The position numbers and the translations under genes are program-made. 34,459 bases of DNA from a virus, in the IMG/VR virus record IMGVR_UViG_3300008217_000029, positions 1 through 34,459 of that record. One strand, written 5' to 3'. The notes under the pieces were generated by a model. It was given only the letters and a program-made list of their open reading frames with translations, ran no database searches and was not told the DNA's origin. Positions 1 through 11,237 of the stretch are shown one piece after another (position 1 is the stretch's first letter; each line of letters begins with the position of its first letter).

Positions 1-13
1 GTATTTTTTTCAT
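1..13 (-). CDS. Start of a further gene, cut by window edge
   Basis: ATG at 11-13 overlaps the preceding TGA (ATGA) and reads MKKI before the window ends. The same coupling pattern occurs at 2154-2157. MKKI starts are common in signal peptides, but four codons cannot establish identity. Confidence 0.35.
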
Positions 14-234
14 TTGCTAAAAATCCTTTTAATTCCTTTGTATACTTTGCTAATAGCTGCGGGCGCTCCCACTGCAATAGACCCCCCTTTAACTCTTGGG
101 TGATCAGATTTACTTGTTGCGTATCTATCTGATTTTTTCTTTACTGTAGGATCAGTTGTATGAGCGGTGACGTCTTGATGGAGTGGAGATCTTTTCCTTC
201 TTTTACCGTGCATGAATCTTCTTTTGCATTTCAT
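10..234 (-). CDS. Small, strongly basic protein (74 aa)
   Basis: Lys/Arg-rich protein: MKCKRRFMHGKRRKRSPLHQ at the N-terminus, a polar middle, then KGGSIAVGAPAAISKVYKGI and a basic end (KRIFSK). Met8 (ATG ending at 213) gives an equally plausible start, MHGKRRKRSP. A Gly/Ala hydrophobic stretch flanked by basic residues could be a short amphipathic or membrane-associated segment, or the protein could bind nucleic acid; nothing decides between them. Its TGA at 10-12 overlaps the ATG of the next gene. It lies 12 nt after the thioredoxin-like gene in the same cassette. Confidence 0.55.
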   Translation of the reverse strand: MKCKRRFMHGKRRKRSPLHQDVTAHTTDPTVKKKSDRYATSKSDHPRVKGGSIAVGAPAAISKVYKGIKRIFSK

Positions 235-246
235 AATTTTTTATTT

Positions 247-612
247 TTAAAAGTCACTCATTATAATTTCGTCAACAACTTCTTGCACATCTTCTCTTGT
301 TGCTAACATTTTAAAACTTAAATCTGCTTGGAATCTTTTAACCTCTTCACCATTAAAAACAATAATAGTAGGAACTATTATTATATTATATTCTTTTTGC
401 CAATCACCTTTATCTATAAGTATTCTTTTAACACCGCAATCTGTAAGTTTACCTAAATAATCAGCACCATTAGATTCATTCCAAGCAGCGTTAAATTCTA
501 CAACACATATATCTTCCTTGCAGAATTTTGTTTGACCAAAAGCGCCACTGCAAACTAACATAAAAGCTATGATCAGCATGTAGAAGCCAAATATTTTCCA
601 TGTTTCTTTCAT
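247..612 (-). CDS. Membrane-anchored thioredoxin-fold protein lacking CxxC
   Basis: 121 residues. A hydrophobic N-terminal segment (WKIFGFYMLIIAFMLVCSGAF) is either a signal peptide or an anchor; the Cys within it is not a good lipobox. The rest follows the thioredoxin pattern: strand VVEFNAAWNESNG in place of VVxFxAxWCGPC, then IIIVPTIIVFNGEEVKRF with the cis-Pro loop, and a C-terminal helix. The CGPC pair is absent (NESN at that site), so normal disulfide exchange is not expected. Other cysteines are FCKEDIC before the first strand and DCG in the middle. Likely exported or membrane-facing; a structural or chaperone-like role is inferred. A few Bacteroidota phages appear to carry similar proteins, from memory. 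Confidence 0.65.
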   Translation of the reverse strand: MKETWKIFGFYMLIIAFMLVCSGAFGQTKFCKEDICVVEFNAAWNESNGADYLGKLTDCGVKRILIDKGDWQKEYNIIIVPTIIVFNGEEVKRFQADLSFKMLATREDVQEVVDEIIMSDF

Positions 613-614
613 AA

Positions 615-812
615 TTAATAATACCCGGTTAGAAATGGATTACTCTCATCTATTGGGTTTTCTTTTTTATCAATCTTCTCTATATACTTCTTCAACTTCG
701 TTAATTTTTCTGTTACAGTTTCTTTATCCATAGAAGCCTCACAACACTCGTAGACATCGTCTTTTATAAGCGTTTTTACAGTATGTAACGCTTCAGTTGT
801 TTTTATACACAT
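615..812 (-). CDS. Small protein of unknown function (65 aa)
   Basis: 65-residue, mostly helical and charged protein (EALHTVKTLIKDD; ETVTEKLTKLKKYIEKIDKK) with three cysteines (one at residue 2, two adjacent as ECCEAS) and an aromatic end (FLTGYY). No signal peptide or membrane helix. It is packed between the membrane protein and the thioredoxin-like gene with a 2-nt gap on each side, which is the main evidence that it is real. I do not recognise the family. Confidence 0.55.
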   Translation of the reverse strand: MCIKTTEALHTVKTLIKDDVYECCEASMDKETVTEKLTKLKKYIEKIDKKENPIDESNPFLTGYY

Positions 813-814
813 AA

Positions 815-1090
815 TTATCTTAATTGATCTATTTTAACTTCGATTCGTTTAATATCCTCTTTGATTTCGGTTACATCTTCCTGTGTGGTTATAATGGTTT
901 GACGTATCATCTGATCTTTCATATCAAACTCCATTCTAGTTACATCGGGAGCTGGTAGTTCTTTTGCCTCTGTAATATCTGCTTGCAACATAAACCACAT
1001 ACCTATAATTGTAGATATCGCAGCGCCAATACCTATTAGTGTTTTTATACTAACCGTGAAGCCGGTGTCCTCATTTAATTCCTTTGCCAT
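815..1090 (-). CDS. Small membrane protein with coiled-coil tail, holin/spanin candidate
   Basis: Chosen start is ATG at 1088-1090 (MAKELNEDTGF), 20 nt after the barrel gene's stop; an upstream GTG at 1136-1138 would add 16 residues but overlap the barrel gene by 28 nt. The 91-residue product has one membrane segment (IKTLIGIGAAISTIIGMWFML) after a short polar head, then a charged coiled coil (VTEIKEDIKRIEVKIDQL). One N-terminal helix with a coiled-coil tail is compatible with a type III-like holin, an inner-membrane spanin component or a virion-anchoring factor. Because it lies in a post-tail cassette of secreted and membrane proteins, lysis or envelope function is plausible. No family was recognised. 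Confidence 0.6.
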   Translation of the reverse strand: MAKELNEDTGFTVSIKTLIGIGAAISTIIGMWFMLQADITEAKELPAPDVTRMEFDMKDQMIRQTIITTQEDVTEIKEDIKRIEVKIDQLR

Positions 1091-1110
1091 TTTATATATT
1101 TTGTTATAGT

Positions 1111-2157
1111 TTAAAAGATTACATAATTTACTCCACACTTAAAGTCATACCATTCTCTATTCCAATATTTATTATATTTTCCCTCTACAAATGTACCTAA
1201 ATGCTTATTTAATTTATATCCAAATATCACTCCACCTGAATAATCATACCATTGTTCTCCATCGTTATAGTTATGATAAGAGAAAGCTCCGCCATCATCA
1301 TAGTGCCAAGGCATTAAGTTAGTCCAAGCGTGTAACCAAAAATCTTTCTTATAGTAATAGTAATCTAAACCTACCACTAACGACTGTTGCATAGTTCTAT
1401 CTAACTCATCTCTTTTTCTTTCTGTGTAATTAGCTAACATTTCAGGTATAACAACCTCTTCCCAAACTTCTGGACTTGTAGCAACTACATCACCACTTGG
1501 ATCTGTATAAATAGAATTATATACATCTACATTATATCCTTCTTGTAAAGCTAAATAAGTATAATGTATTCCACCGTTATCTAATAACCACTCTTCTAAT
1601 GGATCGTAACCATACGGCTCTGACATTCTTTGAACAGCGCCTATATTAAGAGATAACTTACCTATATTATATCTATATCTTTGTGATGTTTCAAAATATT
1701 TTATATCCGCGAAACCATCTTGCAAGTATTCACCCTTTAGTATATACCAATTACCCACGTATCTTATAAAATGATTTTGATCTGTATAATCTATACCTTC
1801 TTGTCTTTTTATATCAGCTTCAAACAAAAATTCTAATCCTTTTACTTTACCTATATTAGCTCCATCAGACCATGAGTTCTCAGTACCGTCATAAAACGTT
1901 TGGGCTTTATTTTCATAACCAAATCTAGCAATTTTCCTTATTCCAAACGCTAAGTTGTAATCAAATGGAGTTTGTATTGTCGATGTTTCTAATCCATTCG
2001 TAACAGAGAACACATCTACGTCTGATAGTGATGTACCCCCACTAGCCGCTGCGTAAAACGTAGAGAATTTAAACGTCTTCTTACAGAATGCTTTATAATC
2101 AAACTGAGCGTAAGCTATATTTGATATTAATAAAATTAGTAATATTAACTTTTTCAT
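1111..2157 (-). CDS. Secreted protein, candidate outer-membrane beta-barrel (348 aa)
   Basis: Starts MKKLILLILLISNIAYAQ, a clear Sec signal peptide with cleavage expected after AYA, as in Flavobacteriia. The mature part is dominated by aromatic and polar alternation (ENKAQTFYDGTENSWSDG; HFIRYVGNWYILKGEYL; GVIFGYKLNKHLGTFVEGKY) and ends YVIF with a terminal Phe, as in many outer-membrane barrels. No enzyme motif was seen. The ATG overlaps the TGA of the giant gene (ATGA), indicating coupling. A phage-encoded exported barrel could alter the host surface, for example in superinfection exclusion, or assist lysis. Virion location is less likely because of the signal peptide. Barrel topology is inferred by eye. 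Confidence 0.7.
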   Translation of the reverse strand: MKKLILLILLISNIAYAQFDYKAFCKKTFKFSTFYAAASGGTSLSDVDVFSVTNGLETSTIQTPFDYNLAFGIRKIARFGYENKAQTFYDGTENSWSDGANIGKVKGLEFLFEADIKRQEGIDYTDQNHFIRYVGNWYILKGEYLQDGFADIKYFETSQRYRYNIGKLSLNIGAVQRMSEPYGYDPLEEWLLDNGGIHYTYLALQEGYNVDVYNSIYTDPSGDVVATSPEVWEEVVIPEMLANYTERKRDELDRTMQQSLVVGLDYYYYKKDFWLHAWTNLMPWHYDDGGAFSYHNYNDGEQWYDYSGGVIFGYKLNKHLGTFVEGKYNKYWNREWYDFKCGVNYVIF

Positions 2158-5100
2158 TTGAATACTGGTAGTTTAGTTTTTTTCCTTTTGGATTTTTTAC
2201 CCCTTGTCTTTTCTTTAATCTTTTCCATCTTTTCATTCTCAACATCAAGATTATATTGACTCCAACCGCCAAACATAAGTACTCTTTGATAAGCTTCGTG
2301 TTGATTATTTAAAGATTGTCTCGTATTTTGCGTCTTATTATACATTCTATTAGTTGGCGCGTTTGTAGTAGCTTCTATGTAATTAGTAACAGCAGACCAC
2401 ATTGGGTTGTCAATATCAAACGTTTCCATTTCGTCTATAACTTTCTTATTATAGTTAAGAGTTTTTTCAGCATTAACCATTTTCCTAGCTTTAATACCGA
2501 GTGGTGGTGATACATTTAACATTTCCATTAACACTGAGCTTTCGTCTGGATTATAATTTTTATCTCTTTGTTCGTGCCATTTAATTGCCATATTTTTTGC
2601 GGTAGCAATAACTGCTCCCCAAACACCAGTACCTCTTAAAACAGAATCAATGCTACCATTAACCACTCTTTCTTTCTTCTTCAACCATCTTTCATCTTCT
2701 TCGTCATCATCAAATAGCGCTAGAAACAACGCTGACTGTAAAGAATAGAATATTAAATTCTGTATTACAAAGTAATAACTTATCCTAGAAAGATTAGATA
2801 TATCACTTTGGAATTGCGTTGTGTTACCAGGTGTTATTCTTCTATTTTTAATATCTAAAAATGCTTTCTTACCTAATCTATTAAACTGAGAGGTAACATT
2901 TTGAAAAGCAAGTATAACTTTTCCAAGTGGTGAAGCTTGTTGTTGAGAAACCATGTCAGGTCTAGCTGATTGCTGAGTAGCTTCTGCTAAAACTTGAAAA
3001 TCTATCCAAGCTTTAGACTCAGCTTCTTTTTGACTCAACCCTTGTTTTAAATAAGTATTAATTCTATTTCTATAAAAAGTTGATCCGCCAGTAGCGATCG
3101 CCATATTATCCCCAATCTGTGTTGGTAAGAATCCAATCTCTAATAATTTCTTTATTGCTGCTTGGAATGGGTTTTTAGCGTCTTTAACTGTTCGTGCCAA
3201 CTCTGCTCCGTTAACATCTGTTTGAATTCCGCGACGCCTTTGCTTCATGAAATCGGAATTAAAGATTGTAGCCCAATCAGTCCAATACTGTTTTTGATTA
3301 GCAAAAGCCTTAGCTGCTGCAAATATGTTATTATCAGCGAAGTTAATAAAATTAACCATAGACATTTGCTGCAACACGGCCGACCTCATATTAAAGAACA
3401 TAGTAGAAGCAACGGATCCGTTTAAATAATTCATAAATCCATTCACTAATTTATTTTGTCCACTTGGTCTGTTTCTACCAGTTTCGGTTCTATAAAGTAT
3501 ATCTTTAATAGCACTCACCATACCCTCTCCGTAAGCGGCTTCTATTTTGTTTAGATTTTCTTGAGAGAATATTATTTCAGCGTTTTCATTAAACTCAGTA
3601 AAGAATTGTTCTCTACCAACCCTGCCGGTAGCATCATCTAAATCTGTTCTTATATCTCCAGCTTCCCAACTTTCAGAGGGTTTTACATAGGTTTCTTGCT
3701 TAGATATTATATTTAAAGTTTCAGCATAAGTTTGTAATTCAGCATCTGCCATAACTAAATCAACTAATTTTTGTTGATCAGTTTTGTTTAACCCAGGAAC
3801 CTTATGCCCATGTTTATCCCATAAATACACCCTTATAGCATCTTGGTGTGTAAAATCACCGTCTGGAGTTTTCTTTGTTAGTTTATTTTTAACATTTTTA
3901 AACTCTTTGTTTAATGATTTGTAATCATTAGCAATAGCTTGTTTAGCTGTATTCAACTCTCTGTAAGCTCTATTTAATGGTCTTACTAAAGCTTTTTCAA
4001 AAAAGTCTCTATGTTGATTTCCTTTTTTACCTTTACCTAAAAAGTTATATATTATCCCTACAAAATCTTCATGCGATGGCGGTATAAAGAATCTAAACTT
4101 ACCTTTATCAGCTCCGCGTTTTCTAGCTTTAATAGCTGAGAATCTCTTTTTAGATTCAATACCGGTTACATCTTCTAATATATCATTAAATTCAGTGTTC
4201 ATTGATTTACTAAATTTAATACCAGTTTTAGGTAAACCTTTAGCATCAGGATCTACTTCTAAAACTTTTTTAAGATCTATTCTTACTTTACCATCAACCG
4301 TTTTTATAACATTTTTTAAATCAGAATTTTTTTCCGCTACTTTCCATCCTATCTCTGTTACTTGATCCCTTAATTTAACTTTTCCATACATATAAGCAAT
4401 ATCTCCTTCAGTAATTTGATGCGATAATATATCTCCTTTTTTCCTAACTACATCCTCCACATTCATATCTCCAAAAGGTTGACCATAAGTATTAACAGCA
4501 CTCATTCTGCCGTCTGGAAAAAAATTATATGAAGCTATAGCTTTCCCGTCTTTATTAAACTCTTTTGTTGCAACCAACCAACCGCTAGGGTTGTACCGTG
4601 TAGATTTAACTACTATACTATTAACTCTATTTTCTACGATTTTAGTTCCAGCCATATAACCGGTTTCTTGGGCTGCTAATATTCTTGTTGTAACAGTTTT
4701 CTTATCTGCACTAACTATTCGAGTTTCCCTAACGAATTCTTGAATCTTACCGTCTATATTTGCAAGTTCTACTTTCTTAGTAACTCTACCTTCTTTAATT
4801 TGTATAACAGGAGCGTCTGTAGCGCCATCCATTCTATCCCAATACAAACCATTCGCGTAAAAGGATGATAACCTACCGTTTTGAAATACTATATGCTTTT
4901 TTGAATCTCTATATCCTATCCAATCAATCCAAGCATCATCTGTAAGTTTCCCATTTCTAGCTTGCGTTAAACACCAAGGATTAGAGTTCTCACCCCAATG
5001 ACTATTTATAATATCTCTAACAGCTTGCATCCCTTCTTTAGTATCTTCAACCTCATGAACTGTAATACCGTATTTCTTGTTGAAAACTCTACCTTCACCA

Positions 5101-8100
5101 AATTCTTTTACTTTATTTGGATTAAGAGGTTTCGCTTTAACTTTACCAGCATAAGCCTCTATAATTTCATTAGGATTATTATAAGAGAATAAATCTAATT
5201 TAAATCTTTCCGCTAAATTAATAGCATCTGTTATTTTAAATCTATCTTCTAATAGTTTTATATTACTAGTTGCCAACCATTTAGTGGTTATTCTCTCGTA
5301 TTTTCTCTTTTTATCAATAGGAATATTTAAACTGTCTATAAAGATAAACATATTATCTATAGTTTTAGATACTAACTTATCTCTAACTAAATCAGGGCGA
5401 TGTTTTGCTAGTGTTTTCTCATACTCAGTCCTATGACTTTTAGAAAACTTAATATTGTTATAATTGTTAGGACCACCTAAATTATTAATATCTCCAAGTT
5501 CAGACTTTATTGATTCTTCTTTACTTTTCATCTTTTCGCCTTCAACACGTTGACGTTTAGCCAGTTGAACACTTCTTTTAACATCGAACTGCTCTAACAT
5601 GTTATCAACAGCCTGAATATTCTGTAAAGCGTCATCTGCAAAGTATATGTCATTATAACCCTCACCAACTTTATCTGCTATCCATAAAGCTTTAGATTCT
5701 GATGTAGAAGATTCCAATGTAATTATATTATCAAAAGGTATGTTCAAACCTTGAGCGTCTAAAAATCTATATATAGCCATTTTAGCGGCGTGTGGTCTTG
5801 CTGTTAATATATAATTATCTTTTAAACCGTATTTTTTAGCCCTATCCATTGCCTTACCAAATAAAGGCCCTTTCTTACCTTCTTTTACTATATCAAACTC
5901 TGAGAAGTCAAATTCCCCATCCTGCTCTAGTATAGTAGCACCTTCATTAGCAAACTCCTCAGCACTTAACCTACCTTTAATATATCCTTTAGTAAATTTA
6001 TCCATTTTACCAATAACGTTTTGTGGCATTGCGTCCCCTATTTTGAGGTTGTCTGTTTTAACTTCTGCAAAATTATCACCAAATAATTTCTTAAACGCTT
6101 CTTTATTATTCTGTACCGACTCATGAGTTCTTTTTACTATACCGTCTCTTAATGAACGTTCTTTTCTAGCGCGATTTCTTTCCAATGCTGTTTCTAGAGA
6201 CGTTTCAACAAACACCATTTGCACATCGTAACCTTTATTTTTAAATTCTTGAACATGGTTTTTCATTTGTTGCAAACTATTACCAGTTCCATCTACAATA
6301 ATACCATCTCCTTGACCTTGAAATTTAGACTGTTTACGCTTAGCTATCATTCTAGCATCCCACCCAAGTGAACCGAACTTACTAGCTTGTTCTGGTGTAA
6401 AATCTTTCATGTCTGTAGGTAGGCCATGATTTTTCATTAACCATTCTAACGATATATCTTGATTAACAATCTTGAATCCTTGATTTTTTAAATCTAAACC
6501 TTTTATTACAGTTGATTTTCCAGAACCAGGACCACCAGCCATAAATATAACTTTTCTACCAGGTTGAGGTGTACCTTCTGGGTTTGGCATTGTATACCTA
6601 ACACCAGATTTTGTTCTAGCAACTGTATCATCAAAATCCCAAGCACTCATACCTCTAGTTGGATTTTTAGATGAGCGAGAAAACTTAGACGCATTATCAA
6701 TCGCTTTTCTTTTGTGTATATTTCTACTTAAAGGTGATTTAGTCGCGTTTGTCTTGCTATATTTTACCCCTGTTTCTTCAAATTGATTTATTATTTCTTG
6801 TCTAGCTTCGCTAGGACTTAAATGGCTAACGCTAAACTCCTCAGCTACATTATTTTCAGACTCAAGAAGCTCAATAGTAAATGGATCAAGACCATGTTTC
6901 ATTAATCTGTATATACCAGCGTGTCCATCTTTTAATTTTAAACTACCATCAAGTATTCTAGGTAGTACTTTATTACGAAAATCAATACCTAAAGAAGCTT
7001 TATAAACACCACTAGGATCGTTTATTTCTAATATAGAAAATTGACCTAACATTGCTTTTAATAGAGGTGTAATATTTTTAACGTTACCTGTTATAGCTGC
7101 ACCCACACCAATCTTAACTATCTCATTTATAGGTGTGTGTTCTTCAACAACGTCCTCAATCCCAATCTTATTATTTTCGTCAACTTGATGACCGTGTAAA
7201 TTAGCAGACTTTCTCCAGAAATTATTTTGATCTAAAGACGAGTGAATTACTAATTCATCAAACAACCAAATATCATTCTTATTTAAATCAGTTTTGAACC
7301 AAGTTTCTACATCTTTAAAAAACTGTAAAAAATTGTCAAACTTCTCCTTTTCATTCGTTTTTGTAAAGTCTAAATTTGCCGGGTTTTTTGCTTTTTTCTT
7401 TTTATGGTAATAAAATCTTTTAGCAACAATCTTTTTAGCACCCCTTATTTTTTTAGTTATAGGTACAAGCTTTTCAAAATGAGGCATTACTATATAAGCA
7501 GATCTATCCCCTCCCGTAAGCAATTCTTTTAACACGGCATAATGTTGAGGGTATTTATCTAAAAACTTATTCAGCCTATTACTCATACGTCGCTCCCACG
7601 TTACACCTAGTTTTTCATTCCAAAGAGCATTCACCATCTTTATAATTGCTGTTTTTTCTTCTATTGTACCTTTTATAAGATCTTCTTTCATAATAAGAGC
7701 AAAATCTCTTGGAATTGATTTTTGTCCCATTATTTCAGCAAAGTTACCATCCATCCATCCTTGCACTTGCTCCAAGAAAGGAGCGTTTAGATTAAAAGCG
7801 GTGTTAAATTTTTCATCAAGATCTTTCTTACGTATATCAACAAGCTGCTTAGCCATATTAATATCGCTAGAATCAAGTTTATATTTGTATATTATTTGTT
7901 TCCACGCTTTACTATTAGCACCATCGCCTTCTACAACTTCATGTGATAATTTAAGGATACCTTGACTACGAGAGAATTTAACAGTATCAAAAGTTCTGTT
8001 TTCAGTTTTTTGCTTATCTAACCCATTTAAGAAATTATCTATTTCAGCTTCTACAACTACATCAATATCATTAGAGTTTTCTATCTTAAACTTGTTAACA

Positions 8101-11100
8101 GCGTCTTTAGTGAGAGATTTAGCGATAAGTTCTGCTAATTTTTTTTGTCTCGCTAATAAAGTTGTATAACCACCCTCTATAAAAAATTTAGTAAACCTAG
8201 CTTTATTAGTCTCTATACTATATATACCTTTACCAGGATATGTTACCTTACCAGTTTCAGGGTTTACTCTTTTATCTTTCTCTCTACCTACTTTCTTTAT
8301 ATCAAATAAAGTCTTATAATTCTTTTTTATAGTGTTAACATCAAGAGCTTTTATGTGGTTTGCATAATTTAAAGCGTGATAAGCCTTATATTCCTCGCTA
8401 GCAAAACCCTCTACTGTTTTGGTAACCTTACCCATTTGTTTTTTAACAGCTTTCATAAACTCTTTTTCTATAAGAGCGTTTAATTGCTTAGTTAAATTTT
8501 TAGGATTTTGCTCCAATATATTAACCACTTTATTATAAATGGTTTGAGATACTACATCTTTATTATCAAGATTAACATCACTTAGACTTTTTAGTTTTCT
8601 AGCCTTTTTACTTGGTTTTGGTTTTGTTGGCTCTGGCGCTTTAATATCTTTAGCTTCTGATATATCTACACCCATTTGTTCTGTACCACCAATAGCTTTA
8701 GCTCTAGTGTATATTTCAGGCTGCCTATTTCTTAAGGTGGCATCTAGAAATGTTGTTACTTTATTTTCTTTGTTATATATATCAAACAAAGGTTTATTAC
8801 GACTTATTTTACTTCCATCTGGTAGCGTGACTTGAGGAAATATACCTAACATTTGTTCGTTTACAGCTTCTTTTACAGCCTGTATAGGTATATTACCTGT
8901 TGGATCAAATTTTAATGCTTTGCTAATTATAGGCCAATTTTTTTCTATTATAGCTTCAGCAGCACCAAATCTATCTTCTGGCGTTGATTGTGGAGATTGT
9001 TCTATATCAACTAGTGATTCATTATCTATTTCAGCATCTAAAAATTGCTGTGCTCTTGGACTGGTTTTAGATAGTTTCATGTCTGTAACAGCAACACCTT
9101 CACCAGCTAATGCTATAGCTCTAGCACTAAGTTGGTTTTTCTCTATACTTTTTTGGTAGTCTTTCATGAAATTATAAACTTGCCTACCATCTGCAAATTC
9201 TTTTTTGATACCAAACTTTCTAGCAATTTCTTGAACAAAGTTTTTCAATTTATCAAAAACGCCTTCATTAAAAGTTATATCACCTTTTGTTAATCCATCA
9301 GAAAATACAGTTAACCATTCTTCTGTAGTGTTAATATTTAAATCTTCACCAGTTTTAATTCTACGATTAATTTCTGTTTCTACGTAGTTTCTCTGATCTT
9401 CAGTTAAAGTATTTTTGAAACTTGAGATCAATTTAGTTTGTCCCTTAACATCTAAACTTTGCATGTGTTTAGCTATAACGCCGTGTAGCACCTCATGAGC
9501 GCCCACGTTTATTTGACCTGTTTTGCCAGCTATATCTTTATTTATAATAATAGAATCACCAACGATAAAACCATCAGAACCTGTAACGTCTTTAGCGTCT
9601 AAACCCATTTCTTTTGCTATCTTATCATAAGTTGCTTGTGCTGATAAATCATTTTCAGCTATAAGAACATCTTTACCTATTTTTTTACCAGCGGCTTCTG
9701 CAAAAGCAATAGTTTTAGATATAGATATATCACGTCTAGCTTTAGCAACTTCTTTAGCTATTGCTGTTTCTCCTACATCTACAGCACCTTCATATTTACC
9801 AATTATTCCTTCTATTTCAGCTTCCAAGACTGCTAACTCTTCTGCAGCGTTAGGAACTTTATCAATTCCTTTCTTTTCAGCTTCTATTTGTTTTAATTGT
9901 CTTTCTTGTTCTAATTTAACTAAAGTTTTCCTATCATCCTTGTCTGTTATTTTCTCATCGATTTGAGAATCTATAATAGCTTTGTTTTGTTTTCCGTGAG
10001 CTTTTTTATCTAAACCTGTTTGGTCGTTTTCAATTTCTAGATTAGCCATAGCAATATCCATATCGTCTGCGGTATCCACAAAATCCTTCATCTTAGCATA
10101 AGAAACTTTCTCCCCATTAATTTTATATACTGGTTTTTTCCCAAGTAAAGCCATACCAACATTTATAGGGGCTGTTGTTGTACCTGTTATAGCTTCAAAT
10201 CCAATTTCAGCTGGATCCATCTCTTGACCAGCAACGACTCGACCTGCAACCTCACCGATACCACCACCAGTAGCTTCAACACCAAGACCAGCTGCAACGG
10301 CAGTTATTTTTTTAGTTCTACCCGCTATATTTGCTGTTTTTAAAACACCTGTAGTTGCTTTACCAGCTAAACCACCGGAAAGAGTTTCTATCGCACCGAT
10401 AGTTAAACCTCTACCAATAGATTTATTTCTTATTTCTTGACCTTTAGGACTTTGTAAAAGTTCTAATATATTATCATCAGTAAATTCCTTACCTTCTTTT
10501 TGTAGTTCTGCTTCTATTAACTCTCCAAAAGTTAAAGCTGTTTCCATAGCTGTAGCGGCGCCACCTAAGGTTGCTGTAACACCACCAACGGCAGTTCCAA
10601 TACCAGGAATGAAACTACCAGCTGCAGCACCACCAGCGGTAGCGCTTGCTGTCCATTTTCTAGCTTCAGGTGAATCAGCTAAAGTACCAAGTTGAGTACC
10701 AATTGATTGAACAAACATTTCAGCCATTAAACCTGGGTCTTTTTTTATACCTCTAAAAAACGCCGCCCAAGTTTTACCTTCTTTTTCATATTGAGTGCTA
10801 AACCTTTTCATACGTTCAGAGGGTTTGTAATCCTCTGCTTCAGCTTGTTTTGCTCTTATAAATTCTTGAACAGAATCTTTAGATACATTAGAACCTTGTT
10901 TCCACATGTCCAATGATTCACCAGACGTACTAGCAGCCTCGTAACCACCAATACCCGCTCTATATAAATCACCAATAAAATTAACAAATCCTCCTGAATC
11001 TTCTATCTCTTCTTCTTCTAACGCTAAACCTACAGACACACCTGGTTGAATATCTTGCTTTGAATATTTCGTTTTAAAAGAATCTATATTTTTAGTGTAA

Positions 11101-11237
11101 AGCCCTCTTGTAGAAACAGCATCAAAAACCCTATCTTGATATTCTTCATCTTGATATTGTGTTGTGAATTCCTCAAAAGACTTAGTGTAAAGACCTTCTT
11201 CAGATAATACGTCAAAAAGTTTTTTTAATTCTTCCAT
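2154..11237 (-). CDS. Giant polyvalent ejection protein: zincin, kinase-in-HAD, repeated FSRS motifs (3027 aa)
   Basis: Largest gene here, in the T7 gp16 position. In order: two tandem GLYTK repeats (residues about 5-59); a Gly/Ala-rich hydrophobic region (about 195-235); a zincin-like domain with HEVLH at 581-585 and a possible third ligand at E639/E640; a P-loop kinase (GPGSGKST, K1574) lying between HAD motif I (DFDDT, D1534/D1536) and motifs II-IV (T1812, K1849, D1868/D1869); an unassigned domain with NPWCLTQA (W2088); and a helical C-terminus with hydrophobic YYFVIQNLIFYSLQSALFLA (about 2817-2840), reminiscent of LPD38-type polyvalent proteins. Six K(F/Y/L)S(K/R)(S/T) motifs at 720, 1087, 1492, 1518, 1930 and 2341 separate the blocks. 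Likely packaged and injected, possibly as cut fragments. No lytic transglycosylase domain was seen. Confidence 0.8.
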   Translation of the reverse strand: MEELKKLFDVLSEEGLYTKSFEEFTTQYQDEEYQDRVFDAVSTRGLYTKNIDSFKTKYSKQDIQPGVSVGLALEEEEIEDSGGFVNFIGDLYRAGIGGYEAASTSGESLDMWKQGSNVSKDSVQEFIRAKQAEAEDYKPSERMKRFSTQYEKEGKTWAAFFRGIKKDPGLMAEMFVQSIGTQLGTLADSPEARKWTASATAGGAAAGSFIPGIGTAVGGVTATLGGAATAMETALTFGELIEAELQKEGKEFTDDNILELLQSPKGQEIRNKSIGRGLTIGAIETLSGGLAGKATTGVLKTANIAGRTKKITAVAAGLGVEATGGGIGEVAGRVVAGQEMDPAEIGFEAITGTTTAPINVGMALLGKKPVYKINGEKVSYAKMKDFVDTADDMDIAMANLEIENDQTGLDKKAHGKQNKAIIDSQIDEKITDKDDRKTLVKLEQERQLKQIEAEKKGIDKVPNAAEELAVLEAEIEGIIGKYEGAVDVGETAIAKEVAKARRDISISKTIAFAEAAGKKIGKDVLIAENDLSAQATYDKIAKEMGLDAKDVTGSDGFIVGDSIIINKDIAGKTGQINVGAHEVLHGVIAKHMQSLDVKGQTKLISSFKNTLTEDQRNYVETEINRRIKTGEDLNINTTEEWLTVFSDGLTKGDITFNEGVFDKLKNFVQEIARKFGIKKEFADGRQVYNFMKDYQKSIEKNQLSARAIALAGEGVAVTDMKLSKTSPRAQQFLDAEIDNESLVDIEQSPQSTPEDRFGAAEAIIEKNWPIISKALKFDPTGNIPIQAVKEAVNEQMLGIFPQVTLPDGSKISRNKPLFDIYNKENKVTTFLDATLRNRQPEIYTRAKAIGGTEQMGVDISEAKDIKAPEPTKPKPSKKARKLKSLSDVNLDNKDVVSQTIYNKVVNILEQNPKNLTKQLNALIEKEFMKAVKKQMGKVTKTVEGFASEEYKAYHALNYANHIKALDVNTIKKNYKTLFDIKKVGREKDKRVNPETGKVTYPGKGIYSIETNKARFTKFFIEGGYTTLLARQKKLAELIAKSLTKDAVNKFKIENSNDIDVVVEAEIDNFLNGLDKQKTENRTFDTVKFSRSQGILKLSHEVVEGDGANSKAWKQIIYKYKLDSSDINMAKQLVDIRKKDLDEKFNTAFNLNAPFLEQVQGWMDGNFAEIMGQKSIPRDFALIMKEDLIKGTIEEKTAIIKMVNALWNEKLGVTWERRMSNRLNKFLDKYPQHYAVLKELLTGGDRSAYIVMPHFEKLVPITKKIRGAKKIVAKRFYYHKKKKAKNPANLDFTKTNEKEKFDNFLQFFKDVETWFKTDLNKNDIWLFDELVIHSSLDQNNFWRKSANLHGHQVDENNKIGIEDVVEEHTPINEIVKIGVGAAITGNVKNITPLLKAMLGQFSILEINDPSGVYKASLGIDFRNKVLPRILDGSLKLKDGHAGIYRLMKHGLDPFTIELLESENNVAEEFSVSHLSPSEARQEIINQFEETGVKYSKTNATKSPLSRNIHKRKAIDNASKFSRSSKNPTRGMSAWDFDDTVARTKSGVRYTMPNPEGTPQPGRKVIFMAGGPGSGKSTVIKGLDLKNQGFKIVNQDISLEWLMKNHGLPTDMKDFTPEQASKFGSLGWDARMIAKRKQSKFQGQGDGIIVDGTGNSLQQMKNHVQEFKNKGYDVQMVFVETSLETALERNRARKERSLRDGIVKRTHESVQNNKEAFKKLFGDNFAEVKTDNLKIGDAMPQNVIGKMDKFTKGYIKGRLSAEEFANEGATILEQDGEFDFSEFDIVKEGKKGPLFGKAMDRAKKYGLKDNYILTARPHAAKMAIYRFLDAQGLNIPFDNIITLESSTSESKALWIADKVGEGYNDIYFADDALQNIQAVDNMLEQFDVKRSVQLAKRQRVEGEKMKSKEESIKSELGDINNLGGPNNYNNIKFSKSHRTEYEKTLAKHRPDLVRDKLVSKTIDNMFIFIDSLNIPIDKKRKYERITTKWLATSNIKLLEDRFKITDAINLAERFKLDLFSYNNPNEIIEAYAGKVKAKPLNPNKVKEFGEGRVFNKKYGITVHEVEDTKEGMQAVRDIINSHWGENSNPWCLTQARNGKLTDDAWIDWIGYRDSKKHIVFQNGRLSSFYANGLYWDRMDGATDAPVIQIKEGRVTKKVELANIDGKIQEFVRETRIVSADKKTVTTRILAAQETGYMAGTKIVENRVNSIVVKSTRYNPSGWLVATKEFNKDGKAIASYNFFPDGRMSAVNTYGQPFGDMNVEDVVRKKGDILSHQITEGDIAYMYGKVKLRDQVTEIGWKVAEKNSDLKNVIKTVDGKVRIDLKKVLEVDPDAKGLPKTGIKFSKSMNTEFNDILEDVTGIESKKRFSAIKARKRGADKGKFRFFIPPSHEDFVGIIYNFLGKGKKGNQHRDFFEKALVRPLNRAYRELNTAKQAIANDYKSLNKEFKNVKNKLTKKTPDGDFTHQDAIRVYLWDKHGHKVPGLNKTDQQKLVDLVMADAELQTYAETLNIISKQETYVKPSESWEAGDIRTDLDDATGRVGREQFFTEFNENAEIIFSQENLNKIEAAYGEGMVSAIKDILYRTETGRNRPSGQNKLVNGFMNYLNGSVASTMFFNMRSAVLQQMSMVNFINFADNNIFAAAKAFANQKQYWTDWATIFNSDFMKQRRRGIQTDVNGAELARTVKDAKNPFQAAIKKLLEIGFLPTQIGDNMAIATGGSTFYRNRINTYLKQGLSQKEAESKAWIDFQVLAEATQQSARPDMVSQQQASPLGKVILAFQNVTSQFNRLGKKAFLDIKNRRITPGNTTQFQSDISNLSRISYYFVIQNLIFYSLQSALFLALFDDDEEDERWLKKKERVVNGSIDSVLRGTGVWGAVIATAKNMAIKWHEQRDKNYNPDESSVLMEMLNVSPPLGIKARKMVNAEKTLNYNKKVIDEMETFDIDNPMWSAVTNYIEATTNAPTNRMYNKTQNTRQSLNNQHEAYQRVLMFGGWSQYNLDVENEKMEKIKEKTRGKKSKRKKTKLPVFK

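Follow-up and report, generated by a model that had tools for sequence, protein, structure and literature searches.

Polyvalent proteins are large multidomain phage proteins encoded next to portal or terminase genes and carrying an embedded zincin-like metallopeptidase, and their processing by the zincin was predicted in 2017 (Iyer et al. 2017, PMC5512222). The virus record IMGVR_UViG_3300008217_000029, a stretch of 34,459 bases referred to in its full length as the window, encodes a protein of 3027 residues that shares these features. Six copies of a short motif, K[FYL]S[KR][ST], separate successive modules of this protein. The searched text of the 2017 study does not mention an FSKS/FSRS separator and does not name a cleavage site. 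It is likely, in our view, that the window protein is a polyprotein built of cassettes and that its separators, or tags, are recognition sites, and probably cut sites, of its embedded zincin. Compared with Iyer et al. 2017, what is new is the separators themselves, the dialects they form and the link between them and the zincin. They provide explicit candidate sites and a specificity position for the zincin-processing proposal, for which no site was found in the literature searched.

The P1 proteins DarA/DdrB and DarB are likewise multidomain, packaged and injected. Processing of a darA-operon product is reported (PMC5512222), and DarA is believed to be processed (PMC9024508). The capsid-packaging signal of DarB is made up of its N-terminal 30 residues (PMC9024508). 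The passages on P1 in these sources describe no repeated separator.

In the packaged ejection proteins of SPN3US and phiKZ, the prohead protease cuts at a short consensus, A/S-x-E, sometimes at several sites (PMC5694885). That protease acts in trans and mostly removes propeptides, whereas here the candidate protease is part of the same chain and the motifs lie between modules. RNA-virus polyproteins have a cis-encoded protease and several matched sites between functional units. The window protein is alike in its one protease and matched sites, but it belongs to a DNA phage, is probably virion cargo, has a zincin-type protease and exchangeable cassettes, and its cleavage is predicted. Proteins encoded at the same locus, with parts similar to this family, are found in phi40:1 (gp101), elemoA, Gundel and Panino, phages of Cellulophaga, Flavobacterium, Tenacibaculum and Maribacter, respectively. 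The separator is not above chance in these proteins, and phi40:1, phi19:3 and Panino are without HExxH.

Separators and module boundaries

All six copies claimed in the original prediction are present in the open reading frame (ORF) at 2154-11237 on the minus strand (table below). Five stand where they had been placed, and the first begins at residue 721 rather than 720. The accompanying claim that recognizable domains fall between motifs is correct for the zincin, whose HEVLH precedes copy 1, and for the kinase/HAD between copies 4 and 5. It does not extend to every boundary, as the N-terminal module meets the zincin without a tag and the M1 block (727-1086) itself resembles two parts. Composition-preserving shuffles of the protein contain a mean of 0.05 copies and never reached six in 2000 trials. 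The other long ORFs of the window are free of the motif save for isolated partial matches, so a general trait of this phage's virion proteins was rejected and the motif is essentially confined to the polyprotein. Codons vary among the six copies (TCT, AGC or AGT for Ser; TTC or TTT for Phe). Because of this variation, it is the peptide and not the DNA that recurs and is under selection, and a DNA-level repeat or recombination target is ruled out.

In AlphaFold2 models, the copies at residues 721, 1087 and 1492 lie within segments with a predicted local distance difference test score (pLDDT) below 50. The copy at 1930 is at the rim of a low-pLDDT segment, that at 1518 ends a helix, and the region of 2341 is poorly predicted. 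Separators 3 and 4 form a close pair (window 6672-6764) ahead of the HAD. Similar pairs are present in the relatives L040, L054, L058, L061 and L094, and in several relatives the paired separators are 15-27 residues apart, as though a short spacer peptide were excised.

Relatives were collected by a whole-protein search (13 relatives, 41-82% identity over the best segment) and through the C-terminal module (80 additional loci), giving 84 non-redundant proteins. The C-terminal module search returned 571 candidates, and several hundred relatives lie outside the analyzed set. As single-sequence queries, M2 and M4 found 3 and 1 loci, respectively. The C-terminal module is common to all relatives, and in most of them homology starts no more than 1-2 residues from the motif. 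A motif-free count of tetrapeptides in unrelated contexts upstream of this module in the 84 relatives ranked FSKS, VKFS and KFSK as the commonest, with KFSR and FSRS near; 25 unrelated contexts contain FSKS, where 2.2 would be expected. Iteration gave the profile [VI][KM]FS[KR][ST], and conservation stops beyond the motif on its downstream side. The profile has 107 matches in ~145,000 residues upstream of the C-terminal module and 1 in 54,600 residues inside it, while column-permuted profiles average 6 matches.

Aligning homologues, the check suggested for boundary placement, located the separators at module boundaries across relatives. With the C-terminal junction excluded, 11.2% of local-homology ends are no more than 5 residues from a copy, compared with 2.2% at shifted positions, which is about five-fold. 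Module M1 is present in 21 proteins that are mostly alike through FD.VK[FY]S and unrelated directly after it. Six relatives have module M4, four of them with a changed position in the module order, and five of the six keep its leader IKFS[KR][SA]HR..YEK, meaning that the tag travels with the module. In relatives without M4, one tag joins the HAD to the C-terminal module; in the window, M4 is in between with a tag on each side. Repeated matched sites between functional units, as in self-processing polyproteins, are what is found here.

Full conservation of the motif in all phage polyvalent proteins is unsupported, as most of 23 LPD-type proteins are motif-free. Pseudomonadota supply most of these 23 proteins, in which [FY]S[KR][ST] is found 12 times against 3 in shuffles, roughly a four-fold excess; [LI]S[KR][ST] and [FY][KR]S[ST] are elevated as well. 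Known crAss001 cargo proteins carry the motif at chance level. In four LPD-type polyvalent proteins of Pseudomonadota phages or prophages (L149, L157, L160, L169), copies of [FY]S[KR][ST] lie close to MuF_C boundaries or follow HExxH by 129-158 residues. The occurrence of [FY]SR[ST] 129-158 residues beyond HExxH in some unrelated Pseudomonadota polyvalent proteins, a small set, suggests that the separator may predate this phage group.

Coupling of the separators to the zincin

Of 77 complete proteins, 74 have the HExxH motif. An upstream copy is present in 48 proteins, and in every one of them the first separator is C-terminal to HExxH. Copy density has maxima at +125 to +165, +450 to +600 and +775 to +975 relative to HExxH and stays at background level on its N-terminal side. 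HExxH and a Glu 59 residues on (H112, E113, H116 and E171 of the alignment) are invariant in 37 domains, a gluzincin-like motif, and this invariance is what an active peptidase would be expected to show. Three relatives (L022, L078, L096) have HDxxH in place of HExxH and zero separators upstream of the C-terminal junction. A search of PDB sequences with the zincin profile gave nothing significant, and outside phages the family has only very weak matches in the other 394 Bacteroidota genomes searched.

The residue three positions after the Phe of the tag (F+3) falls into classes, or dialects. At the C-terminal junction it is S/T, D/E or G/N/A, and R/K is a fourth class that comes from a held-out set of relatives. 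In the discovery set, zincin distance is almost uncorrelated with HAD distance (r -0.02) and with C-terminal module distance (r 0.03) because the modules are exchanged. F+3 correlates with zincin distance at r 0.434, and the next best of 26 single columns reaches 0.189. The motif window is related to zincin distance with a Mantel p of 0.0005, and seven-column windows containing F+3 occupy the top seven of 272 places. A joint model of all regions gives r 0.376 for the zincin core and -0.11 to +0.10 for the others (pre-zincin, zincin-to-junction, HAD and C-terminal module). Zincins of clusters 8/9 have S/T at F+3 in 42 of 44 junctions, compared with 4 of 29 for the remaining zincins. Thirteen nearest-neighbor pairs by C-terminal module have differing zincin groups; in nine of these F+3 differs too, every time in the direction predicted. 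Junction and upstream copies within a protein agree in class 87 times against 60 expected (p 1e-4), and the six copies of the window protein have T, S, T, S, S and S at F+3. The sequence of the site co-varies with the cis protease, as in a self-processing system; the single-column effect is weaker in the held-out set.

The held-out set is composed of 76 proteins from two further scans; none shares a stretch more than 88% identical across 400 residues with another member or with the discovery set. Within-protein dialect replicated strongly, with 42 class agreements against 23 expected (p 1e-4) in the 50 proteins whose junction and zincin are clear. In L278, for example, the junction reads FSKD and the upstream copies FSKE, FSKD and FSKE; in L257 the junction reads FSKR and the upstream copies FSKR and FSKK. 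The categorical zincin link replicated moderately: S/T is found in 14 of 25 junctions of zincins nearest clusters 8/9 and in 10 of 43 others (one-sided p 0.007), with many cluster assignments made at 26-45% identity and some junctions mis-located. The column-level F+3 peak replicated weakly. The R/K dialect (FSKR, FSRR) is at the junction of L257, L281, L286 and L304, with upstream FSKR in L257, L281 and L304 and FSKK in L286.

Relatedness was controlled in the combined 122 proteins using pairs with similar C-terminal modules (distance up to 0.4) and different tag classes. Among 42 matched pairs, the protein's own class fits its upstream copies better in 36, worse in 1, and ties in 5 (sign-flip p 5e-5). 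When the zincins are close and the C-termini distant, the two proteins share a class in 86% of cases (n = 21 pairs, not independent). For close C-termini and distant zincins the figure is 32%, and for all pairs it is 39%.

Proposed processing and alternative explanations

In this reading, the fixed parts of the protein are its N-terminal part and its C-terminal module; between them are the embedded zincin and a series of effector modules that varies, and the whole is probably packaged in the virion and injected. Each effector module would be bounded by a six-residue tag, [VI]-[KM]-F-S-[KR]-X, that the zincin recognizes and cuts in its own polypeptide, releasing the modules. X, which is F+3, would be a main specificity position, with the dialects S/T, D/E, G/N/A and R/K. 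P1' is usually the dominant specificity position in zincins. The scissile bond may be at or next to K/R-X, and if X is P1' the cut could be guessed to follow FS[KR] directly. Cleavage could take place during assembly, in the virion or in the host cell.

Of the two functions originally suggested for the motif, processing has strong indirect support. The tags are at module boundaries, C-terminal to the zincin, and F+3 co-varies with zincin subtype. Because the tag is at the seams and after the protease, and its key residue matches both the other copies and the protease type, the tags look like cognate sites of a cis-acting protease. Recognition of the tags is strongly supported as being linked to the zincin, judging from sequence co-variation, and cleavage would be the most natural reading of this recognition.

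The other suggested function, docking or loading signals by which every module would enter the capsid or pass the tail, is very improbable. It would suit several copies, one per module, in a protein that is probably virion cargo. It gives no reason for X to track the zincin, it leaves paired copies 15-27 residues apart needless, and P1 DarB relies on an N-terminal signal (PMC9024508, in the passages on DarB). Scarcely credible is a recombination seam or passive linker in which the tag is mere short homology for module exchange; the breakpoints do cluster at the motif, but the differing codons place the peptide under selection, and X is coupled to a distant domain and uncoupled from its neighbors. 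Cutting by another protease, either a capsid-maturation protease of the phage or a host enzyme, is quite improbable. The prohead protease of giant phages does cut ejection proteins at a short motif (PMC5694885). Here, the tag tracks the in-cis zincin better than any other tested region, no prohead protease was recognized among the window genes scanned, and the core FS[KR]X is unlike A/S-x-E, with an acidic X in one dialect only.

Several results weigh against processing by the zincin. N4 vRNAP has an HExxH domain and yet, in the passages that treat it, is packaged and ejected unprocessed (PMC5512222; PMC12633501). Among zincin-bearing relatives, 26 of 74 have no above-threshold copy upstream of the C-terminal junction, some of which the dialects account for. 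The zincin model, of moderate confidence (pLDDT 69.6), has no significant Foldseek match. The zincin proteins at the equivalent locus of Flavobacterium phage elemoA and Tenacibaculum phage Gundel, and MW202828, do not have the motif above chance. The held-out F+3 column has a small r (0.114) and its neighbors are similar, though it has the lowest p (0.0025). Co-variation demonstrates recognition rather than cleavage, and N4 vRNAP exemplifies a zincin protein that travels uncut; both points favor tags that are uncut binding sites for the zincin or its neighborhood, holding, ordering or inhibiting the protein in packaging or ejection with the zincin as a clamp or switch. This explanation is unlikely, as the invariant HExxH and downstream Glu fit an active peptidase and the sites are at module seams with low-confidence, linker-like predicted structure.

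Processing by the embedded zincin, if extended to the relatives, would define a clade of uncultured Bacteroidota phages with self-cleaving effector polyproteins. Protease and sites would share a dialect, cassettes would be swapped, and sites would be re-spelled when the protease changes; on balance we favor this broader picture. If true, it gives a rule for dividing many unannotated phage proteins into functional units and a naturally occurring panel of proteases whose site preferences differ. It would also account for the swapping of injected effector domains without loss of the protein.

Gene context and domain architecture

TerL, the portal, several PHROG virion proteins and the polyprotein ORF are all encoded on the minus strand of the window. 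The order on this strand is the TerL, portal and virion genes together with a 1927-residue protein, then other genes, then the 3027-residue ORF. The 1927-residue protein matches PF25731 crAss_MUZ at 29.7 bits (cut-off 27), a muzzle protein being a mark of Crassvirales-like phages. The best annotated relatives of the portal are a spring-water podovirus record and Maribacter, Flavobacterium, Cellulophaga and Tenacibaculum phages, and the portal is nearest to Pachyviridae/Pervagoviridae-type phages. The source phage group is that of Bacteroidota phages. The equivalent locus in portal-related phages encodes one protein of 1691-3859 residues, structural or uncharacterized; gp101 of Cellulophaga phage phi40:1 is annotated as structural from tandem mass spectrometry (MS/MS). 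By gene context and these MS/MS-annotated relatives, the 3027-residue protein is probably virion cargo. Like polyvalent proteins, it is adjacent to portal/terminase packaging genes and is very large with unrelated domains (zincin, kinase, HAD and further modules).

Table. Features of the 3027-residue protein and its gene, in window coordinates
Feature	Residues	Position	Strand	Remarks
Polyvalent (multidomain) protein gene	1-3027	2154..11237	-	shares its strand with TerL, portal, virion and muzzle-like protein genes
N-terminal stretch, two ...GLYTKSFEEF..QY-type repeats	1-85	10983..11237	-	similar N-termini in 5 relatives
N-terminal module	85-431	9945..10985	-	phrog_32588 match, E 4.5e-38
Zincin-like metallopeptidase domain	481-720	9078..9797	-	invariant HExxH and Glu 59 residues on (37 relatives)
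HEVLH, predicted catalytic motif	581-585	9483..9497	-	
Separator 1, KLSKT	721	9063..9077	-	140 residues past HEVLH; pLDDT <50 linker
Module M1, no assigned function	727-1086	7980..9059	-	
Separator 2, KFSRS	1087	7965..7979	-	pLDDT <50; homology stops here in ~20 relatives
Module M2, no assigned function	1092-1491	6765..7964	-	
Separator 3, KYSKT	1492	6750..6764	-	segment below pLDDT 50
Separator 4, KFSRS	1518	6672..6686	-	helix end, just ahead of HAD strand
Polynucleotide-kinase-like P-loop kinase and HAD phosphatase	1524-1900	5538..6668	-	Pfam Zeta_toxin/AAA_33; Foldseek
Separator 5, KFSKS	1930	5436..5450	-	edge of disordered linker
Module M4	1936-2340	4218..5432	-	mobile in relatives; IKFS[KR][SA]H leader retained
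Separator 6, KFSKS	2341	4203..4217	-	conserved start of C-terminal module
Conserved C-terminal module	2346-3027	2157..4202	-	without internal separators

The top Foldseek matches of the kinase/HAD region are to T4 polynucleotide kinase/phosphatase (E 1.5e-6). The P-loop kinase seems to be inserted within the HAD, with WDFDDT before the kinase and the remaining HAD after it, and in many relatives the HAD is kinase-free. Module M4 contains SNPWCL and many short beta strands and has no assigned function. The duplicated N-terminal repeat of ~40 residues recurs in several relatives, likewise N-terminal or nearly so, and, by analogy with P1 DarB, is a candidate capsid-targeting signal.

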